A DNA stretch of 41,362 nt from assembly GCA_028689835.1 (NCBI GenBank), contig JAQVCK010000006.1, positions 1 to 41,362 of the forward strand, given 5' to 3'. The stretch's first letter is position 1. Every line of letters starts with the position of its first letter. Source of the DNA: Pygmaiobacter sp. (GTDB taxonomy: Bacteria > Bacillota > Clostridia > Oscillospirales > Ruminococcaceae). The notes under the pieces were generated by a model. It was not told the origin of the DNA, made no database searches, and saw only the letters and a program-made list of their open reading frames with translations. Below, one piece after another: positions 161-5,461 of this stretch. The position numbers and the translations under genes were made by a program.

Positions 161-1009
161 TTATTTGACAATTTGCAATAAAATTTCGCGGGTCAGTTTA
201 CAGGCCACGGCGGTCGAAGTGCCGCTTTGGTCGTAGTGGGGCGAAAGCTCGTTGATGTCACAGCCTACCACCCGCAGCTTGTTCAGCTGCAAAATGGCGC
301 GCAGCAGCTCGGTAAAGCTGACGCCGCCGGCCTCCGGCGTGCCGGTGCCGCAGAAAACCGACGGGTCCAGCACATCAAGGTCCAGCGACACATACACCGG
401 CACCCCCGCAAGCGCCGGTAACACCGCGGCAAAATCCGCAAGGGTAAACGGGTGCAGGTCAGTGTGGGCGCGGGCAAACGCAAACTCGTCGCGCTCGCCG
501 CTGCGAATGCCAAACTGGTGCAGGCGGCCGTCGCCGACAAGCTGCCACACCTGCCGCATCACCGTCGCGTGGGACAATGTCTCGCCAAGATAGTCGGCGC
601 GCAAATCGGTGTGGGCGTCAAAATGCAGCACGTGCAGGGAGGGGTAAGCCTTTTGCACGGCGCGCACCGCACCCAGCGTTATCAGGTGCTCGCCGCCCAG
701 CATCACCGGCAGCTTGCCGTCTGCCATCAGCCGCGCGGTGTATTCTTCGGTGAGCTGCAGCACCCTTGCGGGGTTGCCGAACGGCAACTCTAAATCGCCG
801 CCGTCGAACACCTGAATGTCGGTGAGGTCACGCCCGCTATAGGGCGAATAGGTCTCGATACCAAAGGACTCGCTGCGGATGGCGGGCGGCCCAAAACGGG
901 TGCCTGGCCGAAACGAGGTCGTACCGTCAAACGGTACGCCAAACAGCACGGCAGAGGCTTCTTCGTAATCGGCGTCGCAGCCAAGAAACGTCTGGATATT
1001 CTTATTCAC
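161..1009 (-). CDS. speB: Agmatinase (ureohydrolase family)
   Basis: 282 aa; metal-ligand motifs GGEH, HFDAHTDLR, SLDLDVLDPS; neighbours are polyamine genes. Confidence 0.93.
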   Translation of the reverse strand: MNKNIQTFLGCDADYEEASAVLFGVPFDGTTSFRPGTRFGPPAIRSESFGIETYSPYSGRDLTDIQVFDGGDLELPFGNPARVLQLTEEYTARLMADGKLPVMLGGEHLITLGAVRAVQKAYPSLHVLHFDAHTDLRADYLGETLSHATVMRQVWQLVGDGRLHQFGIRSGERDEFAFARAHTDLHPFTLADFAAVLPALAGVPVYVSLDLDVLDPSVFCGTGTPEAGGVSFTELLRAILQLNKLRVVGCDINELSPHYDQSGTSTAVACKLTREILLQIVK

Positions 1010-1856
1010 TTTGCGCCAGCGCCTCCTTTACGTAGGTTGGCAGGTAAAACGCGCCGCGGTGCAGCGCGGTGTTGTAGTAGCGGGTGGCAAGGCCAAGGCG
1101 GTTCCACTGTGCGGGCTGCTGGTCGCTTACCGGGTGCAGCCCCTTGGACGCAAACCCAAACAGCCAGTGCCCCGACGGGTAGGTAGGGATATGCGCCTGA
1201 TATACTTCGCTCACCGGGAACACCCCTGCAATGCGGCGGTGGGCGTCCTGCATGGCCTTTGCGTCCTCTTGGTAAAACGGGCTTTCGTGCTGGTTTACCA
1301 TGATGCCCTGCGCCGTCAGCGCCTTGTGGCAGTTGCCGTAAAACTCTTTGGTAAACAGCACTTCGCCCGGGCCGGACGGGTCGGTAGAATCGACCAGAAT
1401 CAAATCATACACGCTGTCGGTATGGCGGATGAATTTCAAGCCGTCCTCAAAATGCAGGTGCATGCGCGCATCGTCAAACCCGCAGGCAGTACCGGGTAAA
1501 AAGCGGCGGCAGGTCTTTACGACCTCTTCGTCGATCTCCACAATGTCCACCTGCTCAATGCCGGGGTACTTGCCCAGCTCGCGGGCAACCCCGCCGTCGC
1601 CCGCGCCAATTACCAGCACGCGGCGGATGCCGGGGTTTACCGCCATCGGCACATGCACCATCATTTCATGGTAGATAAACTCGTCACGCTCGGTCAGCAT
1701 CATCACGCCGTCCAGCGTGAGAAACCGCCCAAACTCGGGCGAATCGTACACGGCAATGCGCTGGTAGTCACTTTGGGCCGCATAAAGCTGCTGCGTGACC
1801 CGGATGGAAAAGCGCACATCCTTTGTGTGGTACTCGCTGTACCATAAATCATCCAT
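1002..1856 (-). CDS. speE: Spermidine synthase (polyamine aminopropyltransferase)
   Basis: 284 aa; LTLDGVMMLTERDEFIYHEMMVHVP, VLVIGAGDGGVARELGKY, DLILVDSTDPSGPGEVLFTKEFY. 8-nt overlap with speB. Confidence 0.96.
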   Translation of the reverse strand: MDDLWYSEYHTKDVRFSIRVTQQLYAAQSDYQRIAVYDSPEFGRFLTLDGVMMLTERDEFIYHEMMVHVPMAVNPGIRRVLVIGAGDGGVARELGKYPGIEQVDIVEIDEEVVKTCRRFLPGTACGFDDARMHLHFEDGLKFIRHTDSVYDLILVDSTDPSGPGEVLFTKEFYGNCHKALTAQGIMVNQHESPFYQEDAKAMQDAHRRIAGVFPVSEVYQAHIPTYPSGHWLFGFASKGLHPVSDQQPAQWNRLGLATRYYNTALHRGAFYLPTYVKEALAQSE

Positions 1857-3309
1857 CGGCTTCCCCTTTCTCCAGCACGTTTAAGCGGCTGGCGTCCATG
1901 CACTCGGGCCCGGTCAGCAGGCAGCCCTTTTCGCGTGCGTAGTTGATATAATCCACAATGTCGCGGGTGATGCGCTCGCCCGGTGCCAGCACCGGGATGC
2001 CCGGCGGGTAGCACATCACAAATTCGGTGCACACTTCGCCGATGCTTTCTTCTAGCGGCAGGCTGCGCTTTGGCGCATAAAATGCCGTTTGCGGCGACAG
2101 CACCACCTCGGGGCTGATGTATTCGCTTTCAAACATATCACTGTTGTCTTTTTTATAAAGGCGCCGCAGTTCGGCCAGCGCGCTGATGAGCCGCTCGACA
2201 TTTTTGGTCTTATCCCCCACCGAAATATAAGCAAGAATGTTGCCAAGGTCGCCAAACTCAATTTGAATGTTGTACTCGTCGCGCAGCAGGTCGTACACCT
2301 CAATGCCCGCAAGGCCGATGCCCAGCGTGTTCACCGAAAGCTTGGTCGTATCAAAATCGTAAATGCTGTCGCCGTTGACAAGCTCGCTGCCGTAGGCGTA
2401 ATAGTCGCCAATGGCGTTGATTTCGCTGCGGGCATAGGCGGCAAAGTTTTTGACCTTTTCAAAAATCTGCACCCCCTGCAACGCAAGGTTGCGGCGCGAA
2501 ATATCAAGGCTGGACATTAGCAGGTAAGACCCGCTGGTCGTCTGCGTGAGGTTGATGACCTGCCGCACATAATGCTCGTTCACCGCCGGCCCGCACAGCA
2601 ACAGCGAGCTTTGGGTCAGCGACCCGCCGGATTTGTGCATGCTGACGGCGGCCATATCCGCCCCCGCCGCCATAGCGGAGACCGGCAGCCCCGCGCCAAA
2701 ATAAAAGTGGGTGCCGTGGGCTTCGTCTGCCAGCACGCGCAGCCCGTGCGCGTGGGCCAGCTGCACAATTTCGGCAAGGTTGGAACAGATGCCGTAATAG
2801 GTGGGGTTGTTGACTAAAATGGCCTTGGCTGCCGGGTGCGCGGCAAGGGTGCGCCGCACCTCGGGCATGGCCATGCCCAGCGCAATGCCAAGGCGGCGGT
2901 CGGTTTCGGGGTTGACATACACCGGCACCGCGCCGCACAGCACCAGCGCGTTGATGACGCTTTGGTGCACATTGCGCGGCAGAATAATTTCATCGCCGCT
3001 TTTCAGGGTGGAAAGCAGCATCGCCTGCACCGCCGAGGTGGTGCCGCCTACCATAAAAAAGGCGTGCGCGGCGCCAAAGGCTTCGGCGGCAAGCTGTTCT
3101 GCCTCGCGGATGACCCCGGACGGGTGGCACAGGTTGTCCAGCGGCTTCATTGAGTTCACGTCCACCGCAAGGCACTGCTCGCCCAAAAAAGCGGTCAGCG
3201 CCGGGTTGCCGCGCCCGCGCTTGTGGCCCGGCACATCAAACGGCACCAGGCGGTCGCTTTTCATGCGCTCTAGCGCCTCGTACAGCGGTGCTCTGGTCTG
3301 GTCCATCAT
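1849..3309 (-). CDS. speA: Orn/Lys/Arg decarboxylase (PLP fold type I), probable arginine decarboxylase
   Basis: 486 aa; [42 protein letters not shown] (PLP Lys). Arginine specificity inferred from the adjacent agmatinase. Confidence 0.9.
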
Positions 3310-4085
3310 TGCTGTGCCTCCCGGTAGATGTTGGTGCCGCTGAAAATTTCAATCATCTCGCGGCGCAGTGCATTGGTGATGTCCAGCCGCACCTGCGGCG
3401 GCAGCTCGTACACGTCGGAGTTGAACAGGTAGTTTTGCAGCACAATGTCTTTGATGAGCATTTTGGTGTGAAAGATATTCGACTGGTAGATGTTGACGTC
3501 GATGGAGTCGTACCGGCGCAAGGTATCCTCTGCGATATAGTCCTGTATCGAGGCGATGCGGTGGTCGATGAACAGCTTTTTGCCCTCGACATCGCGGGTA
3601 AAGCCGCGCACGCGGTAATCCATCGTGATGATGTCGGAGTCAAAGCTGCCAATCAAAAAGTCCAGCGTGGAAAGCGGGGTAATCTCGCCACAGGTGGCAA
3701 CGTCGATGTCCACCCGGAAGGTGGCAATCGAGGTTTCGGGGTGGTACTCGGGGTAGGTGTGCACCGTGACATGGCTTTTGTCCAAATGGGCCACGACGGT
3801 TTCCCCGCTGCGGCTTTGCACCATGCTTTTTTCGGCAATCAAAAAGGTGACACTGGCGCCCTGCGGCTCGTAGTCCTGCCGGGAGATGTTCAGCACCGTC
3901 GCGCCAATCATGCCGGTCAACCGGGTCAGGATGTCGGTGAGACGCTCTGAATTGTACTGCTCGTTGATATACTTGATATAGTCCTGTTGTTCACGTGCCG
4001 TTTTAGCATAGCAGATATCGTAAATATTAAAGCTCAGCGACTTGGTTAAATTGTTAAAGCCGTACAGTTTCAGTTTGTCCACCAT
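3306..4085 (-). CDS. speD: S-adenosylmethionine decarboxylase proenzyme (E. coli SpeD-like class)
   Basis: 259 aa; [15 protein letters not shown] pyruvoyl-processing region and ATCGEITPL. 4-nt overlap with speA. Confidence 0.93.
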
Positions 4086-4102: not shown

Positions 4103-4140
4103 CAAAAAAAGATGCACCACAGTATTCTGTGATGCATCTT
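4103..4140 (-). terminator. Intrinsic terminator/attenuator upstream of speD
   Basis: Minus strand AAGATGCATCACA-GAATAC-TGTGGTGCATCTT followed by a T run. The one non-Watson-Crick position is a G-U wobble only in minus-strand RNA. Confidence 0.75.
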
Positions 4141-4476
4141 GCGTTTTTGCCAAAATCAATACAACAGCATACGGCGCCTTGCGGTACCCGGCAGGCCGGG
4201 CGCTGCGCGCTTTCTTTTGTACTGGCTCAGAGTCTATATAGTAAGAAACTACTTTTACCACTCTTATTGACCGTTTCACAAGCGTGTATCAGAATACACT
4301 TGGTTATGAAGTAACCAACTGGCAATTCAGTTGCCAACTTATAAATTTTGCGCTCTTAACGCAATCAATAATGTGGGTTGCCCCACGCTCGGCAGTTGAC
4401 CCGGCTGTCCGTCTGGCCTTAAGTTTTGCCGCGGCAAAACTGGTCTGTGTTTCTTCTCGCTATATGCGACCTGAAG
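4103..4476 (-). ncRNA. Candidate structured RNA / long 5' leader of the speD operon (class not identified)
   Basis: Begins at a consensus sigma-A promoter and ends in an intrinsic terminator 18 nt before the speD ATG. Contains many short hairpins on the minus strand, including GTGGG-GCAA-CCCAC (GNRA loop), GTTTTGCCGCGGCAAAAC, TTGCG-TTAAGAG-CGCAA, TTGGTTA-CTTCA-TAACCAA, GTGTAT-TCTG-ATACAC and CCCGG-CCTG-CCGGG. Confidence 0.55.
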
Positions 4477-4483
4477 CAGATTT

Positions 4484-4513
4484 ACTATAAAGTATTACAC
4501 TGGTTGCTGTCAA
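4484..4513 (-). promoter_or_regulatory. Sigma-A promoter for the speD leader
   Basis: Minus strand TTGACA (4508-4513), 18-bp spacer, TATAGT (4484-4489). Confidence 0.75.
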
Positions 4514-4732
4514 GGTTTTTTTGTTTTGCCCATCACGATTAAACCATTTCATACCCATAATATGGGTATTATTCTTGTTTCTGTTGTGACATCCAAGCTT
4601 TTTGGTACACAAAAACCGTTATTTTGTAAACTGTGGGGCTTTTGCAGCACAGTTTTTTAGGTGATATAGAAAATTTGACCAAATTTGTGAAATTTCATAT
4701 CACATCACTGTTTTCCCTGTGGCTTCAAGCAG

Positions 4733-4762
4733 TTGACAGCCCTTGCAACAGCGGGCTATACT
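4733..4762 (+). promoter_or_regulatory. Sigma-A promoter for the Fe-S flavoprotein gene
   Basis: TTGACA (4733-4738), 18-bp spacer, TATACT (4757-4762). Confidence 0.7.
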
Positions 4763-4834
4763 GGCAGGGTAGGCGGGCTTTTGTAACTGGCCTGCGCCCG
4801 CCCTGCGGGCAGATTGAAACTGGGGGGTTTTAAA

Positions 4835-5461
4835 ATGAAGGTACTGCTGGTCAACGGCAGCAGCCACGAAAAAGGCTGCACTTATACTGCACTGCAACAG
4901 GTGGCGGCTGTTTTAGAACAGGAAGGCATTGCCTGCGAAACAGTGCAACTGGGTGGTGGCCCGGTGCGGGACTGCATTGCCTGTGGCAAATGTAAAACGC
5001 TGCAAAATGCCTGTGTGTTCCGCGATGATGTGGTCAACGAGGTGATTGACAAAGCCGCGCAGGCCGACGGCTTTATTTTTGGCACACCGGTGTATTACGC
5101 GCACCCCAGCGGGCGCATTTTGTCGGTGCTGGACCGCACGTTTTACGCGGGCAAAAAAGCTTTTTTGCATAAGCCCGGTGCCGCCATTGCCTCTGCGCGT
5201 CGCGCGGGTACCACCGTGTCGACTGACGTGCTAAACAAATACTTCACCATTGCCGAAATGCCAATTGTCGCTTCGTCTTATTGGAACATGGTGCACGGCA
5301 ACCGGCCTGAAGAGGTATTGCAGGACGCCGAGGGCATGATGACCCTGCAAAACCTTGGTCGCAACATGGCTTGGCTGCTGCGCTGCATTGAGGCGGGCAA
5401 AGCGCAGGGCATTACCGCGCCCCAAAACGACGGCAGTGTGCGCACCAACTTTATTCGCTGA
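4835..5461 (+). CDS. NADPH-dependent FMN reductase / iron-sulfur flavoprotein (Isf-like) family
   Basis: MKVLLVNGSSHEKGCTYTAL flavodoxin-like start, then CIACGKCKTLQNAC (C-X2-C-X2-C-X6-C). ATG at 4835 has a GGGGGG ribosome-binding site; the supplied ORF start at 4814 is an upstream TTG. Confidence 0.85.
   Translation: MKVLLVNGSSHEKGCTYTALQQVAAVLEQEGIACETVQLGGGPVRDCIACGKCKTLQNACVFRDDVVNEVIDKAAQADGFIFGTPVYYAHPSGRILSVLDRTFYAGKKAFLHKPGAAIASARRAGTTVSTDVLNKYFTIAEMPIVASSYWNMVHGNRPEEVLQDAEGMMTLQNLGRNMAWLLRCIEAGKAQGITAPQNDGSVRTNFIR

Follow-up and report, generated by a model that had tools for sequence, protein, structure and literature searches.

The window analysed here, positions 1 to 41,362 of contig JAQVCK010000006.1 from Pygmaiobacter sp. 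(assembly GCA_028689835.1), carries on its minus strand a polyamine operon in the order speD, Orn/Lys/Arg decarboxylase, speE and speB (Table 1). A leader RNA of ~370–375 nt (~4477–4102) precedes speD. Its promoter (TTGACA-18-TATAGT, 4513 to 4484, minus strand) has 11 of 12 consensus matches and is among the top two of the 11 sites detected (4.6 expected); the spacing to the -10 box predicts a transcription start at about 4477. The T tract of a 14-bp intrinsic terminator stops 17 nt 5' of the speD ATG (4085). The leader core (4477–4227) has a minimum free energy (MFE) of -79.9 kcal/mol, compared with -61.2 ± 4.6 kcal/mol for dinucleotide shuffles (z -4.1; 0 of 200 shuffles as low). These results bear out the initial annotation, which had proposed a promoter-to-terminator RNA on the minus strand before speD. 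A perfect palindrome (ATACCCATAATATGGGTAT, 4551–4569), possibly an operator, separates the leader from a divergent FMN-reductase-like gene (4832–5461) and sits ~40 bp ahead of the -35 box. The latter gene has its own near-consensus promoter (TTGACA-18-TATACT, 4733–4762, plus strand).

Table 1. Features of the speD leader and its operon, by window position.
Feature	Position	Strand	Remarks
-35 box TTGACA	4508..4513	-	promoter scan
-10 box TATAGT	4484..4489	-	promoter scan
P0 5' strand (GGUC..AUAUAG..AAGAAAC)	4449..4471	-	closing helix; own-versus-swapped test
5' domain	4389..4446	-	RF02440 match; contains P1, P2, P3 and candidate pseudoknot
P1	4445-4442/4401-4398	-	outer pair U-A, G-C or C-G in homologues
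P2	4441-4434/4429-4422	-	variable hairpin
P3	4418-4416/4405-4403	-	
Candidate pseudoknot CGG/CCG	4411-4409/4392-4390	-	invariant, without covariation support
P4 hairpin GUGGG-GCAA-CCCAC	4373..4386	-	covarying in homologues
P5 5' strand UAUUGAUU	4363..4370	-	pairs with 4272-4265
P6 hairpin GCGUU/AGCGC	4350..4362	-	GAG/CUC in most homologues; compensatory
P7 5' strand UUUAUAAGU	4337..4345	-	
Inserted hairpin UGGCAA/UUGCCA	4320..4336	-	lineage-specific; also in homologue L028, with compensatory change
P7a hairpin UGGUUA/UAACCA	4301..4317	-	
P8 hairpin GUGUAU/AUACAC	4284..4299	-	variable; partly by eye
P7 3' strand GCUUGUGAA	4275..4283	-	CUUGUG (4282-4277) doubles as antiterminator strand
P5 3' strand GGUCAAUA	4265..4272	-	pairs with UAUUGAUU
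Conserved junction strand AGAGUGGUAAAAGU	4251..4264	-	alternative helix P9 possible between its AGAGU and ACUCU (4233-4229)
P0 3' strand (GUUUCUU.CUAUAU.GACU)	4231..4249	-	own-versus-swapped test
CGCAAG, partner of CUUGUG (4282-4277)	4138..4143	-	overlaps terminator 5' arm
Intrinsic terminator stem-loop	4109..4140, U-tract to 4102	-	14 pairs, T7 tract
speD, SAM decarboxylase	3306..4085	-	TIGR03331, 406.6 bits (cut-off 255.8)
Orn/Lys/Arg decarboxylase	1849..3309	-	PF01276
speE, spermidine synthase	1002..1856	-	
speB, agmatinase	161..1009	-	

An alignment of 88 full leaders delimited a conserved stretch of ~200–230 nt. The closing helix P0, in which the start of the transcript (consensus AGAGUCU..AGCAAAUAUU) pairs with ..AAUAUUUGCU..AGACUCU, encloses the whole RNA. 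All 17 P0 pairs in the window are standard and, across 75 dissimilar leaders, own strands paired 2.5 kcal/mol better than swapped strands (z -9.9, p ≤ 5e-5). The anatomy described in the initial annotation was right as far as it went; it had missed P0, the switch between P7 and an antiterminator, and the RF02440 match. For example, the GTGGG-GCAA-CCCAC hairpin it singled out is P4, a position occupied by a covarying hairpin in homologues, and its distal pairing of UAUUGAUU with GGUCAAUA (ATTGATT/GGTCAAT) is the long-range, nearly invariant helix P5. Its suggestion that GTTGGCAACTGAATTGCCAGTTGG switches between two alternative hairpins was not supported: in one homologue, L028 (GGCTACTGAATAGCC), compensatory change keeps GGCNA/UNGCC and CAACTG/CAGTTG is broken, which favours a lineage-specific inserted hairpin over a switch. 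In the 5' domain, a CGG/CCG hairpin proposed by RNAalifold was replaced by P3 (GGC/GCC), whose pairing survives G-C to A-U changes. Towards the 3' end, P0 and the P9/P10 hairpin use the same 3' strand, so the latter is retained solely as an alternative to P0; competition between P9 and P0 is a possible second switch. The MFE structure of the window RNA contains P4, P6, P7, P7a, P8 and part of P0 and leaves out P1, P2 and P5, with the consensus fold lying ~6 kcal/mol above it.

Covariation among homologous leaders, which the initial annotation had named as a check, confirms the helices through compensatory changes. Among 46 sequences, 97.9% of the cells pair, whereas slid partners reach no more than 45%; compensatory change is seen at 19 pairs. 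Extending the alignment to 100 sequences with a covariance model, a procedure that leans toward the model, gave compensatory change at 32 of 53 pairs (393 cells) and 97.6% pairing versus at most 44% with slid partners. When all 30,135 column pairs were scanned without a model and judged by a tree-based null, five reached E ≤ 0.1, all inside P1, P2 and P4, and the next-ranked were mostly helix pairs. Conservation of P5, P7 and the pseudoknot is too high for strong covariation. At the base of P7 (alignment columns 141/197), a non-Watson-Crick A.C pair is exchanged for G.U (64 to 24 sequences), an isosteric wobble replacement such as a precisely folded RNA should show.

The sole Rfam match in the leader is RF02440 (SpF59_sRNA; 4389–4446, 62.1 bits, cut-off 37.2, model positions 1–54), a 54-nt model labelled "Streptococcus sRNA SpF59 (ldcC RNA)". 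The Rfam check thus identified a family that covers 54 nt and has no assigned function rather than a well-described class. Matches to SAM, T-box, PyrR, lysine and other Rfam leader classes were absent above the gathering score when the window and 20 loci were searched with cmscan. RF02440 is one module, the first third of the leader, within an RNA of ~230 nt. Nor is it an independent sRNA confined to Streptococcus, as its label has it: it scored above cut-off in 18 of 399 genomes drawn evenly from the phylum Bacillota, in many families, and in each case ahead of polyamine genes. The pneumococcal RNA (F59, srn235, SN20 or Spd_sr49) is a discrete transcript of ~318–327 nt between SP0915 and SP0916 (PMC2887815, PMC12323649), and sRNA listings up to 2025 still give it no function (PMC3395615, PMC12323649). 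Its length and its Rfam family suggest that it contains the same 3' domain. In the literature searched we found no description of a riboswitch or polyamine-attenuator role for the F59/RF02440 RNA; an earlier report under the name 'ldcC RNA' is possible.

A search with the core pattern retrieved at least 118 stretches in named genomes of the Bacillota. Carriers among the matches listed include Bacillus, Paenibacillus, Acetobacterium, Acidaminococcus, Phascolarctobacterium, Faecalibacterium, Blautia, Flavonifractor and many Oscillospiraceae, as well as one metagenome-assembled genome labelled Spirochaetes. Two IMG/VR pattern matches that would have placed the RNA in viruses are one identical coding sequence and were rejected as a chance match. 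Among the matches listed, the first downstream gene was polyamine-related in 124 of the 126 scoreable loci: speD (41), Orn/Lys/Arg decarboxylase (36), potA (24) or a carboxynorspermidine-synthase-like gene (23). One of the two others (L101) is a P-II protein gene followed by potA. These counts are biased toward the form with the 5' domain, whose pattern was used to pick the loci. The nspC, speD and potA proteins score above their cut-offs, whereas the carboxynorspermidine-synthase-like proteins (388 bits, where the curated cut-off is 800) carry a family-level name only; nspC is often next downstream of their genes. Because both the downstream proteins and the operons differ, the shared RNA marks a regulon rather than operon inheritance.

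A covariance model (R1) trained on 46 of the collected sequences detected the RNA in 25 of the 399 phylum genomes and, within the window's order, in 39 of 147, in searches that are less biased than the 5'-pattern collection yet have the same training sequences underlying them. R1 added seven genomes without an RF02440 match, at scores down to 30 bits, and in all seven the RNA stands directly before speD or a decarboxylase gene. Most of the seven have no recognisable RF02440 module; therefore, Rfam models the less universal half of the RNA.

Three copies precede genes unrelated to polyamines. A second copy in the genome of the window (L002, L189; G000:C97:8209-8267) keeps the 5' domain (57.7 bits) in an otherwise diverged leader, has its own terminator and lies upstream of the gene for a secreted C39-like peptidase; this copy is possibly a paralogue with a different signal. 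The others lie before a peptidase-like lipoprotein gene (L183 in G448, 115.6 bits), M28-type as read by eye from its sequence, and before a gene for a membrane protein of unknown kind (L177 in G529, 68 bits). Near the polyamine operon of a further locus (L009, 2514–2605) we noted a c-di-GMP-I riboswitch on the opposite strand.

Of 130 leaders, 71 have a strong terminator where one is expected and about half have none under the strict rule used; among controls, strong terminators occurred in 1 of 130 shuffled and 1 of 119 coding sequences. Chance hairpins as the source of the leader fold are ruled out by these terminator controls together with the slid-partner controls and the folding z-score. 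In P7, the 3' strand ACUUGUG hardly varies and has its complement in the terminator 5' arm, which carries sequences such as CGCAAGU, CACAAG and ACAGGU. Runs of at least 6 bp between the two occur in 45 of 65 leaders, against 13.1 expected from shuffles and 0–13 for other core segments, and own partners pair better than swapped ones (p 5e-5). Furthermore, in a homologue that has lost P7 (L180 in G481) both sides of the antiterminator are altered together (CACUUGA, with UCAAGUG in the terminator). P7 itself (UUUAUAAGU/ACUUGUGAA) is near-invariant, and its consensus pairing is weak (A-U and G-U for the most part, and a single G-C), as a switching helix should be.

P7 plus terminator (off) and antiterminator (on) are mutually exclusive because both use ACUUGUG. 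When polyamines are scarce, ACUUGUG would pair with CGCAAGU, blocking the terminator and allowing the genes to be transcribed. A polyamine, most likely spermidine, bound to the folded core would instead hold P7; the terminator would then form and transcription would end before speD. The proposal of a structured minus-strand cis-acting terminator-attenuator of polyamine genes is strongly supported by the gene association, compensatory changes, terminators and conserved antiterminator.

The RNA is also modular: in some homologues the 5' domain is missing, or the P5 and P7 helices have lost their 5' strands. For example, P1–P4 are absent from G521, P6 and the P7 5' strand from G481, and little remains beyond the 3' module and P0 in G221 and G196. 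Natural truncations in which the whole 5' domain or the P6/P7 5' strands are gone (L166, L169, L179–L182) still have ACUUG(UG) and the AAGAGUAGUAAAAG junction, and in most cases the terminator partner as well. These homologues are useful material for mapping the sensor.

The leader has the general hallmark of a riboswitch, in that a conserved structure and an expression platform stand before metabolically coherent genes. Judged from sequence comparisons, the ~230-nt core and its ~370-nt leader probably form a cis-acting RNA that attenuates transcription for polyamine synthesis and uptake, most likely as a spermidine riboswitch. Points against this reading are the three copies before other genes, the MFE structure without P1, P2 and P5, the homologues with missing parts, and the many leaders in which the strict rule detects no terminator. 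Two routes lie downstream of the RNA, one through SpeD and SpeE with decarboxylated SAM (dcSAM) and one, of the carboxynorspermidine type, through the carboxynorspermidine-synthase-like enzyme and then NspC. Spermidine is the metabolite that both routes share with the Pot importer. We favour it over SAM, dcSAM, putrescine and cadaverine because two chemically different spermidine routes and the PotABC importer share the RNA. Of the earlier idea of a riboswitch or attenuator sensing polyamines or SAM, the attenuator part stands, and the gene set points to spermidine rather than SAM or dcSAM. The same attenuator could instead bind putrescine, cadaverine, agmatine, carboxyspermidine, dcSAM, MTA or a basic amino acid, a reading we consider unlikely despite the Orn/Lys/Arg decarboxylase and agmatinase genes in the operons and the two copies before secreted peptidase-like genes. 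The carboxynorspermidine-type route involves neither dcSAM nor MTA, and amino acids leave the potA association unexplained, with spermidine again the common point.

Control by a protein, with a polyamine sensor binding the conserved junction as PyrR does for pyrimidines, would account for the retention of AAGAGUAGUAAAAG in most truncated homologues. This appears more improbable still: a large, multi-helical RNA with a pseudoknot-like, near-invariant 5' domain is typical of aptamers, and no common regulator gene was seen in the operons examined. The discrete transcript and sRNA listing of pneumococcal F59/srn235 (PMC3395615, PMC12323649) would suit a trans-acting small RNA that sits beside polyamine genes by chance. 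Chance is, however, very hard to reconcile with an RNA that precedes several unrelated polyamine gene families across many Bacillota families and conserves a terminator/antiterminator logic, and the independent ncRNA offered as an option by the initial annotation has become less likely. Ribosome-mediated attenuation by a leader peptide is scarcely credible and the least probable of these alternatives. Of 105 aligned leaders, 58 have an open UUG-started frame of nine codons (UUGAUUGAGUUAAAAGCUCAAAUUUUAUAA), but it has no Shine-Dalgarno sequence, its stop position varies, hairpin lengths shift the frame, and its changes are compensatory for P6.

We regard the RNA as a real, widespread and structured cis-regulator and, as far as sequence evidence reaches, a strong candidate for a new class of polyamine riboswitch, of which the RF02440 model covers a fragment. 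Polyamine binding to RNA is unspecific, and proof of true polyamine riboswitches has been hard to obtain. The only accepted one that we found in the literature searched is a rare SAM-I variant (PMC10853860). On balance, we lean toward the present RNA being a second, unrelated and far commoner spermidine (polyamine) riboswitch class, with a large modular aptamer spread across the Bacillota and held in databases as a mislabelled fragment. It would unite two spermidine routes and the Pot importer in one RNA-controlled regulon in gut Clostridia and in Bacillus and Paenibacillus, which the Rfam fragment would extend to streptococci and, among them, to the F59 locus of pneumococcus. The F59 sRNA thereby gains a likely function, and the antiterminator pairing predicts the exact outcomes of compensatory mutations.

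Several known systems resemble this RNA in part. PyrR and T-box attenuators use a similar terminator/antiterminator logic in Bacillota leaders but control different genes, and the leader has no Rfam match to either. The ABC-leader before potABCD in Pasteurellaceae (PMC2965389) is also a terminator-attenuator ahead of a polyamine importer; it is gammaproteobacterial. The potE, odc1 (PMC8632094) and speF motifs are likewise structured RNA candidates before polyamine genes, but they come from Veillonella or alphaproteobacteria, and no match to them was reported here among Rfam families. The spermidine riboswitch built on a variant SAM-I aptamer precedes speD, speE, speB and ldcC and has 13 known members (Salvail et al., 2023; PMC10853860). 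Like the present RNA, it lies before polyamine synthesis genes, and it acts as a terminator-based off switch, as is proposed here. Its four-stem fold differs from the architecture described here, which has no SAM match in Rfam and recurs at 118 or more loci. Polyamine genes and an intrinsic terminator are common to both and an RF00162-like SAM-I aptamer is not, so that the likeness is one of working rather than of membership. RF02440/F59 has the 5' domain in common with this RNA (62.1 bits here) and occupies the equivalent genomic position, which in pneumococcus is ahead of SP0916. However, whereas Rfam models it as a 54-nt Streptococcus sRNA, here it is a module, absent from some members, of a ~230-nt cis-element of the Bacillota.
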